Shown piece after piece: positions 10,885-30,897 of a stretch of DNA of 64,000 bases. Position 1 is the first letter of the stretch. Each line of letters starts with the position of its first letter. The position numbers and the translations under genes are program-made. This DNA comes from Pseudofabraea citricarpa. Lineage: Eukaryota; Ascomycota; Leotiomycetes; Helotiales; Dermateaceae. The notes beneath the pieces are model-generated. The model had not been told where the DNA came from. It did not search any database and saw only the letters and a list, made by a program, of their open reading frames with translations. Location of the stretch: contig JAPWGK010000022.1 in NCBI GenBank assembly GCA_029641185.1, forward strand, positions 496,001 to 560,000, given 5' to 3'.

Positions 10885-13800
10885 ATGGCGTCCTCGGCGG
10901 CAGCGGGTTTTCTGGGACGTGGGAGTTCGGGCAACAATTCGAACATGCGTGGTCTGGTGCAGTTCATTGCGGATCTGAGGAATGCCCGAGCGAGAGAATT
11001 GGAGGAAAAGCGCATCAACAAGGAGTTGGCAAACATACGGTTGGTCATCCGGATGCCTTTGGATGTGCAGTGGGCTGACGTTTTATAATGATAACAGGCA
11101 GAAGTTCAAAGGTGTGTATGAAGCTGCATCTGCGGAGAGAAATGCTGACTGGGTGCAGATGGGAATTTGAACGGTTACCACAAGAAGAAATACGTCTGCA
11201 AGGTAACCTTTCTTACCCCTCAATCAACCCCCACCTGCTCACCCTTTTCAGCTCCTCTATATCTATATCCTGGGATGGAACGTCGATTTCGGTCATCTCG
11301 AAGCTGTCAATCTGATTTCGGCGAACAAATACTCGGAAAAGCAGATTGGTTACCTTGCCATGACCCTCTTCCTCCACGAACAACACGAGCTCTTACATTT
11401 GGTGGTTAACAGCATAAGGAAGGATCTGACAGATCACAATGAACTGTTTAACTGCTTGGCGTTGCATGCGATTGCCAATGTTGGAGGCAGAGAAATGGGA
11501 GAGGCACTTAGTGGAGAGGTTCACAGATTACTGATATCACCGTATGTGATGAGATGACGAGCAAGCGAAAAATGCTGACGGGAATAGGACTTCGAAAGCC
11601 TTTGTCAAGAAGAAGGCTGCTTTGACTCTACTTCGGCTTTATCGCAAACATCCCGATATCGTTCAACCACAATGGGCAGAGAGAATCATTTCGTTGATGG
11701 ATGACAATGATATGGGAGTTGCTCTTTCGGTGACCTCTCTTGTCATGGCGCTTGCTCAGGATAGCCCGGACCAATACAAGGGGAGTTATGTCAAGGCAGC
11801 ATCAAGGATGAAGAGGATACTGGTGGACCAGGAATACGCGCCGGATTATCTATATTATAAGGTGCCTTGTCCATGGATTCAAGTCAAGCTTTTGAGGTTG
11901 TTGCAATACTTCCCACCATCAGGTTTGTTTCTCCGATTTTTAATTATTTCGTTTACTAATCTCCAACAGAGGATACCCATATCCGGGACTTAATACGCGA
12001 GTCGCTGCAGACCATTCTGAACCTGGCTCTAGAGATGCCTAAGAACGTGCAGCAGAACAACGCTCAAAACGCTGTTCTCTTTGAGGCTATTAATCTTATC
12101 ATTCATCTTGATACCGAACAAGCGCTCATGAAACAGATCTCTTCCAGACTTGGAAAGTTTATCCAATCACGAGAAACGAATGTGCGATACCTCGGCCTAG
12201 AAGCTATGACCCATTTAGCTGCTCGTGCGGAAACACTTGACCCTATCAAGCAACACCAAGCTATCATCATTGGTTCTTTGAAAGACAGAGATATTAGTGT
12301 TCGGAGGAAAGGTCTTGATCTGCTCTACAGCATGTGCGATCAAAGCAATGCTCAACCAATTGTTGGCGAGCTTCTCCAGTATCTCCAGAATGCTGACTTT
12401 GCTATTCGCGAGGAGATGGTTTTGAAGATTGCCATCTTGACTGAGAAATATGCTACAGACATCCAATGGTACGTAGACATATCGTTGAGGCTGATCGCGA
12501 TGGCAGGAGATCATGTCAGTGATGAAGTTTGGCACCGAGTTATTCAAATTGTCACCAACAACGAAGAACTGCAAGTCTACGCTGCTCAGAACATCCTTCA
12601 GTATGTTAAAGCTGATCACTGCCATGAAACACTGGTCAAGATTGGTGGATACATCCTTGGAGAATTTGGACATTTAATCGCTGAAGACAAAGGATGCAGT
12701 CCGATCGAACAGTTTATGGCACTCCAAGGCAAACTGCAAGGCTGTTCTTCAAGTACAAGGGCAATCATACTTTCATCATTCATCAAATTTGTCAATCTTT
12801 TCCCCGAAATCAAACCACGACTCATGTATGTCTTTCAAGCGTACAGTCATACCCTCGACTCGGAGTTACAACAACGAGCTTGTGAGTATCTTGCTCTGGC
12901 AAGTTTACCATCAGATGATCTTCTAAGGACCGTTTGCGATGAAATGCCTCCTTTTCCTGAGAGGCAATCTGCACTTCTGTCTCGTCTGCATCAAAAACAT
13001 GCTGGAAATAGCGATAAGCGAACTTGGGTTGTTGGAGGGAAAGACGCCAATGCTGATCAGAAGGAAGTTGCTCTGGCAAAGAATGGTGGACTGAAACGTG
13101 CTTTCAGTACCAACAATGGACAGATGACGAATGGAACCAATGGAACCAATGGTACGAACGGCCATGCCAAAGGAAATCACGATCTTGCTGGTCTGGATAT
13201 GATGGATGCTGGACCTTCAGAACCAAAATCATTGGCACCAAACATGGCTAGTGCAGCTCATCTTACTCCCGATTGGGAAGTGGGTTATAACAAACTCCTT
13301 CTCAAGGGAGATGGTATTCTCTATGAGGATGGTCAGATCCAGATTGGAGTTCGGTCAGAGTATAGAGGTCAGATGGCTTGTATTATTCTCTACTTCTCAA
13401 ACAAGGCTCCTACATCAGTCAGTTCGTTCACCACAACTCTCGACTTGGATGCAGCAGAGAAAGAGAACCTGGGCTGGGAAGTCAAGGGTTTACCTGAGAG
13501 TACTCTTAATGAAGGCGCACAGAGTCAACAAATGATCATGTTTGAAGCCAAGAAGGTGTTCGACAAGAGCCCGACTATCAGAATTAGTTATCTCGCAGGT
13601 GCGCTTCAAGCTCTGACGCTGAAGTTACCTGTAACGATACACAAGTTTATGGATCCCGCAGAACTAACTGCGGATGATTTCTTCAAGAGATGGAAGCAAA
13701 TTGGCTCTGCACCACGTGAAGCTCAACGAGTCTTTGGTGTGAAAGGTGGCCGAGAAGGTGATCGAGAGATCAATGACAGCTTCATTCGAAAGACGATTGA

Positions 13801-14144
13801 TGGATTCAGATGGGGTATTTTAGATGGTGTTGATCCGAACAGTAAGAATTTTGTTGGAGCAAGTGTTCTACATACAGGGGAAGGTGGCAAGTTTGGATGT
13901 CTGATGAGACTGGAGCCGAATTATACAACTCAGGTAAGTTTTGTACCCTTTTCGTTTGATATGATACTAATAGTCTCAGATGGTTCGTCTCACGATTCGT
14001 GCAACGGATGAGAGTGTACCTCCGATCATCATTAAACTTATGGAGGAGAGACTAGCAGTAGGAATTTCTACGCTACCCGAGGTCTTCGAGGCGCCGACGA
14101 GGAGGGAGATATCGGACGCTTTTAGTAATGTGCTTGTTAACTAA
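10885..14144 (+). CDS. APL3: AP-2 clathrin adaptor complex, alpha subunit
   Basis: Alpha-adaptin is a large subunit of AP-2 at the plasma membrane and binds PIP2, cargo and accessory endocytic proteins. Seven exons (10885-11039, 11098-11111, 11159-11202, 11252-11541, 11588-11922, 11970-13933, 13980-14144) give 988 aa, the usual size. Exon 2 is only 14 nt but is required to read RQKFKDGNLNGYHKKKYVCK. The trunk shows RGLVQFIADLRNAR, KLLYIYILGWNVDFGH and NKYSEKQIGYLAMTLF, followed by Armadillo-like helices to about residue 600. The hinge is low-complexity with NGT repeats (13129-13160). The appendage (about residue 700 on) has the alpha-adaptin sandwich and a DDFFKRWKQIG platform segment. Introns are 46-58 nt. 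The start has context CACCATGG. Confidence 0.97.
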
Positions 14145-29093: not shown

Positions 29094-30897
29094 TTAGTGA
29101 ACCATACTCTTCCCAATTTCACTGCTCCACCCCTTTGCACGCTCAAATCCATTTGAATGAGTCTGATAATCCATCAAAGCTTGATAAACTTCCTCCTGAG
29201 AACTAAGAACAAAAAGTCCATATTGAACAACCTTCTGATCAAGTGGAAGACCAGCAACTAAAACTTTTGAAGATATTAGCATGTGATAGTATATCTTATG
29301 ATAAGAATCTCTGCTTTGGACACACCACTTTGGGCACGAGTCATAGCATTGATCCCTTGCAGTCGTTGATGAATAGAGGTATTGATAAGAAATGCAACCC
29401 CAACAAAAAGCGTTTGTGGTTTAGTGGTAAAATCCATCGTTGCCATAATCACTTGATTCTACAACATCGATGGGCCCCGGGGTAAGTTTAATCTTCCCAA
29501 CAGACTGGTACAAACACTAACTCATCTAAAGTTCGATTCCCGGCGAACGCAAGCAGAAGAAAACAATTCTTTTTTTCATCTTTTCTTGTTTTTTTTTTTT
29601 TTCTTTCTAAAAACTTCCTGGGCCGGGAATTTGGCCGATCCTAGAGAGCCGGGACGGGTTCGTTTCCCGGCGGAAGCGTAGAGCCATCCAGGAGCACTTG
29701 CTCATGAAATTATTTTGCTTTTTGGATGTTCTGTTTGTTGATTGTGTGATGCTCGTTAAATCGTACCCGAAAAATGAACATTTCGGTTTAGCCGACAAGC
29801 GACCATCTCATGCCAGAATTTTCGGGATGACTTTCAGGCCTCAACAGACCTTCAACTTCATGAAAATCGCGAAACGCATCTCTTTTTCGGATGTAGCCTC
29901 CTGGTATTTCCTGGAAAGACGATAATAAAATAAGAGACTTACTAAAATGGCCATTCTCCTTTGCATCTGCTGCCACTTCCGCCGCAACCTCATCTCCTTT
30001 CTGCTCGAAAACCACATTGTGATATTGTCCAATAGTGACTTGCTCATTCCCAACTCCAAAGGCAGTACTTCCGCTCAGAGTATAAGCAAATGCATTCCAG
30101 CCTTCTGGAAGATTTTGAACAACTTTTCCACCGGGCTTGATATCGATGTCCAAAATCCATACTGGAGTATAAGCCAATTCTTTCACACTGTCAACTCCAT
30201 GACTTTGCCCTGAGATAACCTTGATGCTGACTTTTCCATCATCGACTTCGACCTTGGGTATTTCTGACGCTCGTAGATCGCGGTATCTCGGTTCGCATTT
30301 CTTGAGCTTCTCTGGAAGATCAACCCACAACTGCATTCCCACATTTGCGCTACCATCAGGATTTTGACGTGGCATCTCGGCGTGCATTATCCCCTTTCCA
30401 GCAGTCATGAATTGTAAGTCTCCTGCCTCGATTGTTCCCGCATTCCCAGCAAAGTCTTCGTGGTCCACAGCGCCCTCTAGCAAGTAGGTAATCCTATAAT
30501 CTATTAGCACAGATCACCAGCATCGAGCTAAATTTCCCATTCGGCCCCACGTTTCTTGTCCCCTATGTGGATGATCTGGGAATCCAGCTCCTGGCTTAAT
30601 AGTAAAGTGGTCGAGCATGAGAAAGGGGGAGAAGTTTCGTAGTTGGGGTGTGCCGATACTGCGACGAACTCTTGCGCCCGCACCCTCTGCTTGTTCGACA
30701 GCTAGAAAAGCCTTCCGAATGGCTCGAGCTACAGTCATGTTCGCAGGTTTTGGTAGGTAAACTTCAGCAGGTGAAACTTTGAAGGTCGTGGTGTTGGTGT
30801 TGGTAAGGATTTGGGAGATTGTTCCGATTATCGATGTTTTGAACGCGACCGAGAGGAATGCGACGATGATTGAAAATGCGAACAAGAACAACTTCAT
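29094..30897 (-). CDS. Pirin family protein
   Basis: Pirins are bicupin, metal-binding proteins; some act as quercetinases or as nuclear cofactors. Three exons (30897-30551, 30493-29943, 29263-29094) encode 355 aa. The metal-binding HPHRG and GKGIMHAEMPR, the LWVDLP segment, and the C-terminal ILVAG..LDQKVVQYG..NGFERAK block appear in family order. Intron 1 (57 nt) uses the weak donor GTGGGG. Intron 2 is 679 nt, over ten times the local norm, and contains a tRNA-Gly gene on the other strand. Its splice (TTT A / TT TTA) gives a seamless FILVAG, so the gene need not be broken. The N-terminal 25 residues are hydrophobic, unusual for a pirin; Met53 is an alternative start giving a plain cytosolic/nuclear protein. 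Confidence 0.85.
29410..29551 (+). tRNA. tRNA-Gly(GCC), interrupted by two insertions
   Basis: The acceptor arms GCGTTTG (29410-29416) and CGAACGC (29544-29550) pair over 7 bp with one T-G wobble. A perfect A box TGGTTTAGTGG starts at 29417. The anticodon stem is CATCG (29435-29439) with CGATG (29468-29472). The loop TTGCCA+T carries anticodon GCC at 29442-29444 and is split after A37 by 21 nt (29446-29466), the canonical tRNA intron site. The variable loop is GGCC, and T-stem CCGGG (29477-29481) pairs with CCCGG (29539-29543) around TTCGATT. A 50-nt insertion (29482-29531) separates T-stem from T-loop. A near-consensus B box AGTTCGATTCC (29530-29540) survives at the insertion's 3' edge. A T7 Pol III terminator follows at 29570. 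The gene lies antisense within pirin intron 2. It may be functional only if both insertions are removed. Confidence 0.8.
29482..29531 (+). other. Spliceosomal-type intron-like insertion in tRNA-Gly
   Basis: The 50-nt insertion begins GTAAGT, has ACACTAACTC (branch site CTAAC) 17 nt before its end and finishes AAAG. These are the same signals and length as the introns of neighbouring protein genes. Exact removal rejoins CCGGG to TTCGATTCCCGG. Its flanks show no target-site duplication. Confidence 0.65.
29570..29576 (+). terminator. Pol III terminator of tRNA-Gly
   Basis: Seven T residues lie 19 nt after the discriminator base, with a longer T14 run at 29589-29602 as a backup. Confidence 0.65.
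29614..29676 (+). ncRNA. tRNA-like hairpin element, probably a tRNA relic
   Basis: CTTCC (29614-29618) can pair with GGAAG (29672-29676). A GGCC..GGCC hairpin follows (29621-29636), and CGGG-TTCGTTT-CCCG (29655-29669) resembles a T-arm with B-box-like GGTTCGTTTCC. No anticodon arm can be drawn. A competing 7-bp stem GCCGGGA/TCCCGGC (29648-29671) is stronger. It lies directly after the T14 run downstream of tRNA-Gly, still inside pirin intron 2. It may be a degenerate second tRNA or an unrelated structured segment. Confidence 0.25.

Follow-up and report, generated by a model that had tools for sequence, protein, structure and literature searches.

Spliceosomal-type introns interrupt nuclear tRNA genes in the fungus Pseudofabraea citricarpa

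Several nuclear transfer RNA (tRNA) genes of Pseudofabraea citricarpa contain inserts with the signals of spliceosomal introns. We analyzed a stretch of 64,000 nucleotides (nt), here called the window, which covers positions 496,001 to 560,000 of contig JAPWGK010000022.1 (assembly GCA_029641185.1; C15:496001-560000), and searched the whole genome (44 Mb, 43 contigs) from it. A nuclear tRNA-Gly(GCC) gene in the window, of the kind transcribed by RNA polymerase III (Pol III), carries a 50-nt segment that is very probably a functional spliceosomal intron of the U2 type. The genome holds at least 16 introns of this kind, that of the window included, spread over 14 tRNA genes. Textbooks set nuclear tRNA introns apart as a class of their own, in which a protein endonuclease cuts and a ligase joins. 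Among the papers listed by our literature searches, with preprints and most subscription papers outside their coverage, none reports a spliceosomal intron in a nuclear tRNA gene.

The gene, both introns included, lies on the forward strand at 29410 to 29551 of the window. The Rfam tRNA model spans it end to end (1-71) with 26.8 bits, below the cutoff of 29, and the two inserts are probably responsible for this low score. ARAGORN missed the unspliced gene and, after excision of 29482-29531 alone, called a tRNA-Gly(gcc) with a 21-nt intron. Exon 1 (29410-29445; nt 1-37) comprises the 5' strand of the acceptor stem, the D arm, and the anticodon GCC, as placed by ARAGORN, and is the same in all seven copies of the gene. 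It is followed at position 37/38 by an ordinary tRNA intron of the type cut by the tRNA-splicing endonuclease Sen (29446-29466; 21 nt, TAATCACTTGATTCTACAACA), which forms three of three outer and three of four central pairs resembling a bulge-helix-bulge (BHB) motif. Exon 2 (29467-29481; nt 38-53), also from ARAGORN, holds the 3' strand of the anticodon arm, the variable loop, and the 5' strand of the T stem. The spliceosomal-type intron then occupies 29482-29531, precisely at the junction of the T stem (nt 53) with the T loop (nt 54), and reads GTAAGT...CTAAC...AAAG: a 5' splice site GTAAGT (29482-29487), a branch-site motif CTAAC (29517-29521) starting 15 nt from the intron end, and a 3' splice site AG (29530-29531) in the context AAAG. 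Exon 3 (29532-29551; nt 54-73) was likewise placed by ARAGORN and supplies the T loop, the 3' strands of the T and acceptor stems, and the discriminator A. The internal A box, TGGTTTAGTGGT (29417-29428), is uninterrupted, and the B box, AGTTCGATTCC (29530-29540), is completed by the last G of the intron; both fit the consensus of these promoter elements. A run of seven T's, presumably the Pol III terminator, lies 18 nt beyond the gene (29570-29576). Both boxes, the T run, and, after excision, a cloverleaf are thus all present. An earlier note, made by a model from the letters of the window, had described the gene in these terms, with a 21-nt intron at 37/38, a 50-nt segment at the border of T stem and T loop, an intact A box, a B box rescued by the last G of the insert, and a T run behind it. 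Its coordinates and motifs agree with the sequence and with ARAGORN, except that it placed CTAAC 17 nt from the insert end where the motif starts at 15 nt. Just downstream of the gene, 29620-29690 is rich in G+C and holds a B-box-like GGTTCGTTTCCCGG, with no tRNA match there.

Seven tRNA-Gly(GCC) genes were found by searching the genome with the window gene, and four of them, on contigs C15, C39 (two genes), and C23, carry an insert at 53/54. In the three others (C7, C43, and C1), CCGGG runs straight into TTCGATTCCCGG. The earlier note had proposed counting these genes and the copies that share the insert, and had singled out a wobble T-G pair in the window gene; the pair occurs in all seven copies and so gives no sign of decay. 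Once inserts and 37/38 introns are removed, the mature sequence is identical in all seven, nt 38 being T throughout. The four inserts (50, 53, 53, and 51 nt) have pairwise identities of 0.64 to 0.72, compared with a mean of 0.66 (standard deviation [SD], 0.03) for shuffled sequences in which the signals are retained. In each insert GTAHGT and the final AG are present, with CTAAY 14 to 15 nt from the end. This pattern is unlike decay, since decay would strike exons and signals as it does the middles of the inserts. The divergence of the inserts also speaks against gene conversion as the source of uniformity, because homogenization of the copies would have left the inserts similar to one another. 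The pattern would fit selection on the mature tRNA-Gly, combined with introns that can be removed. The two genes on C39 (547844-548186), which each have one Sen-type and one spliceosomal-type intron, are separated by 18 nt that contain no T run and may form one dicistronic precursor with four introns.

Like inserts occur in five other tRNA types, giving 16 inserts in 14 genes, at nine positions (numbered by eye) and in six tRNA families; these totals are lower bounds. Both tRNA-Glu(TTC) genes found are interrupted at 49/50, one of them additionally at 20a/21, and both also have a 37/38 intron. All four tRNA-Thr(AGT) genes found are interrupted, one at 19/20 and three at 23/24, and share one identical mature sequence. 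The one tRNA-Thr(CGT) gene found has an insert at 33/34, within the anticodon loop, plus an 11-nt 37/38 intron. Two of the four tRNA-Pro(TGG) genes have an insert in the acceptor stem (4/5), and the one tRNA-Ala(CGC) gene found has two, at 15/18 and 67/68. The mature sequence is kept on either side of the inserts in seven of seven Gly, four of four Thr(AGT), four of four Pro, and two of two Glu genes. Excised tRNA-Ala(CGC) is called Ala(cgc) by ARAGORN, and the G3-U70 pair, which is typical of tRNA-Ala, appears. By eye, a C50-T64 mismatch in the T stem is common to all four tRNA-Thr(AGT) genes found (loci L070, L131, L132, and L135).

Run on the 14 interrupted genes with the inserts in place, ARAGORN assigned the right type in only 1 (Gly3, for which it proposed an incorrect intron of 60 nt), found nothing in 8 (Gly1, Gly2, Gly4, Glu1, Glu2, Pro1, Pro2, and Ala), and gave a wrong type in 5, all of them Thr genes misnamed Ile, Val, or Tyr. 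Genes interrupted in this way are thus missed or misnamed by tRNA finders. After excision, the expected anticodon was called in all 14, and five uninterrupted control genes were each called before and after. A splice-aware scan of the fetched loci, guided by the intron signals only, gave 22 matches from 125 candidates and recovered Gly, Glu1, Thr, and Pro genes, some of them repeatedly.

All 16 inserts are 50 to 56 nt long, start with GTAHGY, and end in AG, and 15 have YTAAY 14 to 16 nt from the end, the exception being the Ala 15/18 insert. In the window, both strands together hold 2,786 GT...AG spans of 50 to 56 nt, of which 70 start with GTAHGY; only 2 combine that start with YTAAY 14 to 16 nt from the end, and one of these is the tRNA-Gly insert itself (leaving 1 among the 2,785 others). 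The splice-aware scan of the window returned the tRNA-Gly gene and nothing else (1 of 24 candidate introns), and the reversed window gave 0 of 15. Together, the span background and the scan with its reversed control rule out a chance match to intron signals. Among 53 introns called by ARAGORN in the fetched nuclear loci, some of them miscalls on interrupted or doubtful genes, none has GT...AG ends. Introns at different positions have a mean likeness of 0.653, against 0.638 (SD, 0.038) for signal-keeping shuffles; being no more alike than shuffles, they give no sign of a mobile intron family or a recent introner burst. For comparison with mRNA introns, the AP-2 alpha gene of the window has six, of 46 to 58 nt, a range that includes the 50 to 56 nt of the inserts. 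They were verified by a 988-residue translation, in which 931 positions are identical to the Coleophoma protein; identity is 96% to Phlyctema vagabunda and 93% to Coleophoma cylindrospora (both Helotiales, Dermateaceae). Two of these six introns start with GTAHGY and one has YTAAY at 14 to 16 nt, so the signals of the Pol III introns are stronger and more uniform than those of the mRNA introns of this one mapped gene.

The A box covers approximately nt 8 to 19 of a tRNA and the B box nt 52 to 62. Inspected by eye, the A box is uncut by inserts in 13 of the 14 interrupted genes, Ala(CGC) being the exception. The B boxes are spared, and in the Gly genes it is the final G of the intron that completes the box. 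In 13 of the 14 genes, five or more consecutive T's occur no further than 23 nt past the gene; the only gene without such a run is the upstream member of the C39 pair, separated by 18 nt from its partner.

For some tRNA types, only interrupted genes came to light. When the genome was searched with spliced sequences of Glu(TTC), Thr(AGT), Thr(CGT), Ala(CGC), and Pro, all 17 matches fell within known genes; those to the Glu, the two Thr, and the Ala sequences were without exception in interrupted genes, and no uninterrupted copy of these four types came up. The exact T-arm pattern GGGTTCGATTCCC occurs at 15 places, two of which are the Glu(TTC) genes, both interrupted. Similarly, CGGTTCGATTCCG occurs at 6 places, comprising four Thr(AGT) genes and one Thr(CGT) gene, all interrupted, and one place that is not a tRNA. 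tRNA-Glu(UUC) reads GAA codons, and 23 of these occur in the open reading frame at 12035-14011 of the window (which runs slightly into an intron). Since no uninterrupted tRNA-Glu(TTC) was found, GAA decoding probably depends on intron removal, and if the census holds, the Glu and Thr(AGT) introns would have to be removed for the cell to survive.

A Pol III transcript interrupted in the same manner exists in the same genome. The best match to U6 small nuclear RNA (snRNA), at C2:955536-955687, scores 33.2 bits, below the cutoff of 44. Three introns, 55, 50, and 52 nt long, interrupt the gene, and their branch motifs lie 15, 15, and 16 nt from the end. The joined exons align to yeast U6 through the ACAGAGA region. 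Judged by this anatomy, spliceosomal splicing of a Pol III RNA would have a precedent in the organism itself. Fungal U6 introns resemble the tRNA inserts in having GT-AG ends and in lying within a Pol III transcript that is short and structured, here three of them with the same geometry. They differ in that the host RNA is U6 and not a tRNA, and in that no second splicing system is known to act on the U6 transcript. Splicing of the fission yeast U6 intron is a published experiment, according to titles cited in PMC5832005. That article also describes introns of fungal U3 small nucleolar RNA (snoRNA) genes, with GTRWGT donors in 88 of 136, an RCTRAC branch motif in 129 of 138, and an average branch-acceptor distance of 15 nt. 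In donor, branch motif, and branch-acceptor spacing, these are like the tRNA inserts; unlike them, they average 92 nt, occur mostly one per gene, and have a snoRNA host (PMC5832005).

Introns outside 37/38 are described in tRNA genes of Cyanidioschyzon, cryptophyte nucleomorphs, and crenarchaea, where they interrupt the D, anticodon, and T arms and a gene may hold several, as in P. citricarpa; some archaeal introns lie at 53/54 or near the acceptor end (PMC4090602). The archaeal and red-algal introns differ from ours in being of the BHB type and attributed to the tRNA-splicing endonuclease, and the nucleomorph introns in being very short, with a mechanism given there as not known (PMC4090602). 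GT-branch-AG signals are not described for any of these groups in the passages of PMC4090602 consulted.

These systems suggest an alternative reading of the segment, as an ectopic tRNA intron that Sen excises at a BHB motif, as in Cyanidioschyzon and archaea. The archaeal introns at noncanonical positions, 53/54 included, and the red-algal and nucleomorph ones lend it some plausibility (PMC4090602). We scored inserts as BHB-like when they formed three outer and at least two of four central pairs at offsets leaving the product unchanged. Only 1 of 16 inserts, that at Ala 15/18, did so, compared with six of the seven tRNA-Gly 37/38 introns, and the window insert forms 0 to 1 of the four central pairs. 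Because all four central pairs occur in no insert and in no control, the test separates the groups but is not absolute. It rejects a BHB/Sen origin for 15 inserts and leaves Ala 15/18 undecided by pairing. Sen substrates would also not be expected to combine GTAHGY, a branch motif, and a terminal AG at fixed distances, and none of the 53 ARAGORN-called introns shows GT...AG, so that we consider this alternative very unlikely. Nor are the inserts canonical Sen-type introns. Canonical 37/38 introns are cut by a different enzyme, Sen; they are like the inserts in occurring in some of the same genes (that of 21 nt in the window gene, for example) and unlike them in place, length, and signals, the inserts lying at nine other positions and coexisting with true 37/38 introns. 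Group I or II self-splicing introns need a catalytic core of hundreds of bases and are rejected at 50 to 56 nt.

The earlier note had left a choice between an mRNA-type intron that is spliced from a tRNA gene and a dead copy. A dead gene, intron-like by chance or through a spliceosomal intron that landed and is not removed, could be tolerated next to three uninterrupted tRNA-Gly(GCC) genes. A tRNA pseudogene is rejected by the lack of exon decay and the one mature sequence in all seven genes, which stay identical while the inserts are saturated yet keep their signals. The T runs are also kept, like inserts occur in five other tRNA types, and no uninterrupted copy was found for Glu(TTC) (two genes) or Thr(AGT) (four genes). 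The dead-copy reading is accordingly highly improbable, and the same exon conservation and diverged inserts with retained signals, together with the inserts in the five further types and the three U6 introns, favor the spliced mRNA-type intron. It is also conceivable that the inserts are spliceosomal and the genes serve as Pol III/TFIIIC sites or as sources of other small RNAs, as the intact internal promoters of the window gene would allow. However, the exact mature sequence is selected on both sides of each insert (Gly 7/7, Thr(AGT) 4/4, Pro 4/4, and Glu 2/2), and GAA codons need tRNA-Glu(UUC), for which interrupted genes alone were found; we regard a non-tRNA use as extremely unlikely.

Several points weigh against removal of these inserts by the spliceosome. 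The case for transcription, for splicing through a lariat, and for the order of events is built on DNA sequence, and all counts come from one genome. The window gene could be dispensable for its tRNA type, as three tRNA-Gly(GCC) genes lack the T-loop insert. The excision boundaries were chosen by hand, which makes the gain in ARAGORN calls partly a matter of construction; in the splice-aware scan, 2 of the 22 matches are mitochondrial tRNA-Leu artifacts and a Glu gene came out as Arg. The case for the Ala(CGC) gene is weaker: its 15/18 insert lacks YTAAY, lies inside the A box, and pairs BHB-like (offset -1) as well as the weaker controls do, and its spliced acceptor stem retains a T-T mismatch. 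The second Glu gene, made of short exon pieces, went undetected in the search with spliced sequences. An uninterrupted Glu or Thr gene that has diverged could likewise have escaped the search. Finally, the pattern AGTTCGANYCC, which has 134 places in the genome, yielded no further 53/54 insert at any of 80 other sites tested. As far as tested, that position is confined to tRNA-Gly.

The census behind these counts is incomplete, with approximately 90 nuclear tRNA genes encountered by hand tally. The Rfam tRNA search of the genome placed 62 genes over its cutoff, 15 of them on C36, a contig of 55,870 bases with cox3- and nad6-like reading frames (by eye) that is probably mitochondrial. This set lacked many nuclear types, and T-arm patterns and fetched stretches then revealed further interrupted genes. 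The 134 places of AGTTCGANYCC are fewer than in the reversed control (194); among the 100 places listed, 2 are known Gly genes, 2 lie in locus L122, where the splice-aware scan gave no match, and 80 were fetched and tested, the two C39 Gly genes being outside the listed set. The pattern TGGTTCGANNCCA was not enriched (26 versus 34). For the T-arm patterns, we inspected all 56 places of GGGTTCGANNCCC (21 within already known genes and 35 fetched), 11 of the 20 places of CGGTTCGANNCCG, and 28 of the 33 of AGGTTCGANNCCT. Yeast tRNAs matched five places, all through the Phe part of the query, and a plasmid search with a Glu gene gave three short matches of no use. Two kinds of tRNA-like loci also turned up. 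Those at C7:82100-83050 (three copies) and C11:111312-111724 have, as judged by eye, A-box-like and B-box motifs, a 7-bp acceptor-like end pairing, a GTCTTCGGAC-like stem, and a T run, yet a variable hairpin stands in place of the anticodon arm; Rfam gives weak tmRNA and mascRNA matches only, and the ARAGORN anticodons are inconsistent (Asp and Gly). The other, at C16:221568-221980, has a 121-nt insert in the anticodon loop according to ARAGORN (Ala-TGC) and no Rfam match, and its identity is uncertain.

What we observed is the anatomy of the genes, their signals and conservation, the cloverleaf that excision yields, and no uninterrupted copy among the Glu(TTC) and Thr(AGT) genes found. A plausible course of events would begin with transcription of the tRNA-Gly gene by Pol III, directed by the A and B boxes and ending at the T run. 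U1 would recognize GTAHGY and U2 the CTAAY-like branch site 14 to 16 nt before the 3' AG, and the spliceosome would remove the segment as a lariat, so that the T arm is restored; in other genes it would be the acceptor, D, or anticodon arm. The 37/38 intron would leave by another route, through Sen and tRNA ligase, with end trimming by RNase P and tRNase Z.

The spliceosome is probably an obligatory tRNA-processing machine in this fungus. Inserts at nine positions in six tRNA families would reflect eight or nine separate gains, and decoding of GAA, and probably of ACU and ACC, would depend wholly on the spliceosome. If so, two unrelated machineries, the spliceosome on one hand and Sen with the ligase on the other, are needed by several pre-tRNAs; the spliceosome relies on a U6 RNA that has to undergo three splicing events of its own; and tRNA supply would be coupled to spliceosome activity. 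If confirmed, the finding means that two splicing systems meet on one RNA, with both kinds of intron sometimes in one gene, and that Pol III genes of 72 nt can gain spliceosomal introns with the internal promoter mostly spared or rebuilt. It would also offer a short and well-defined system for studying spliceosome action on transcripts that have no cap, poly(A) tail, or Pol II tail domain.

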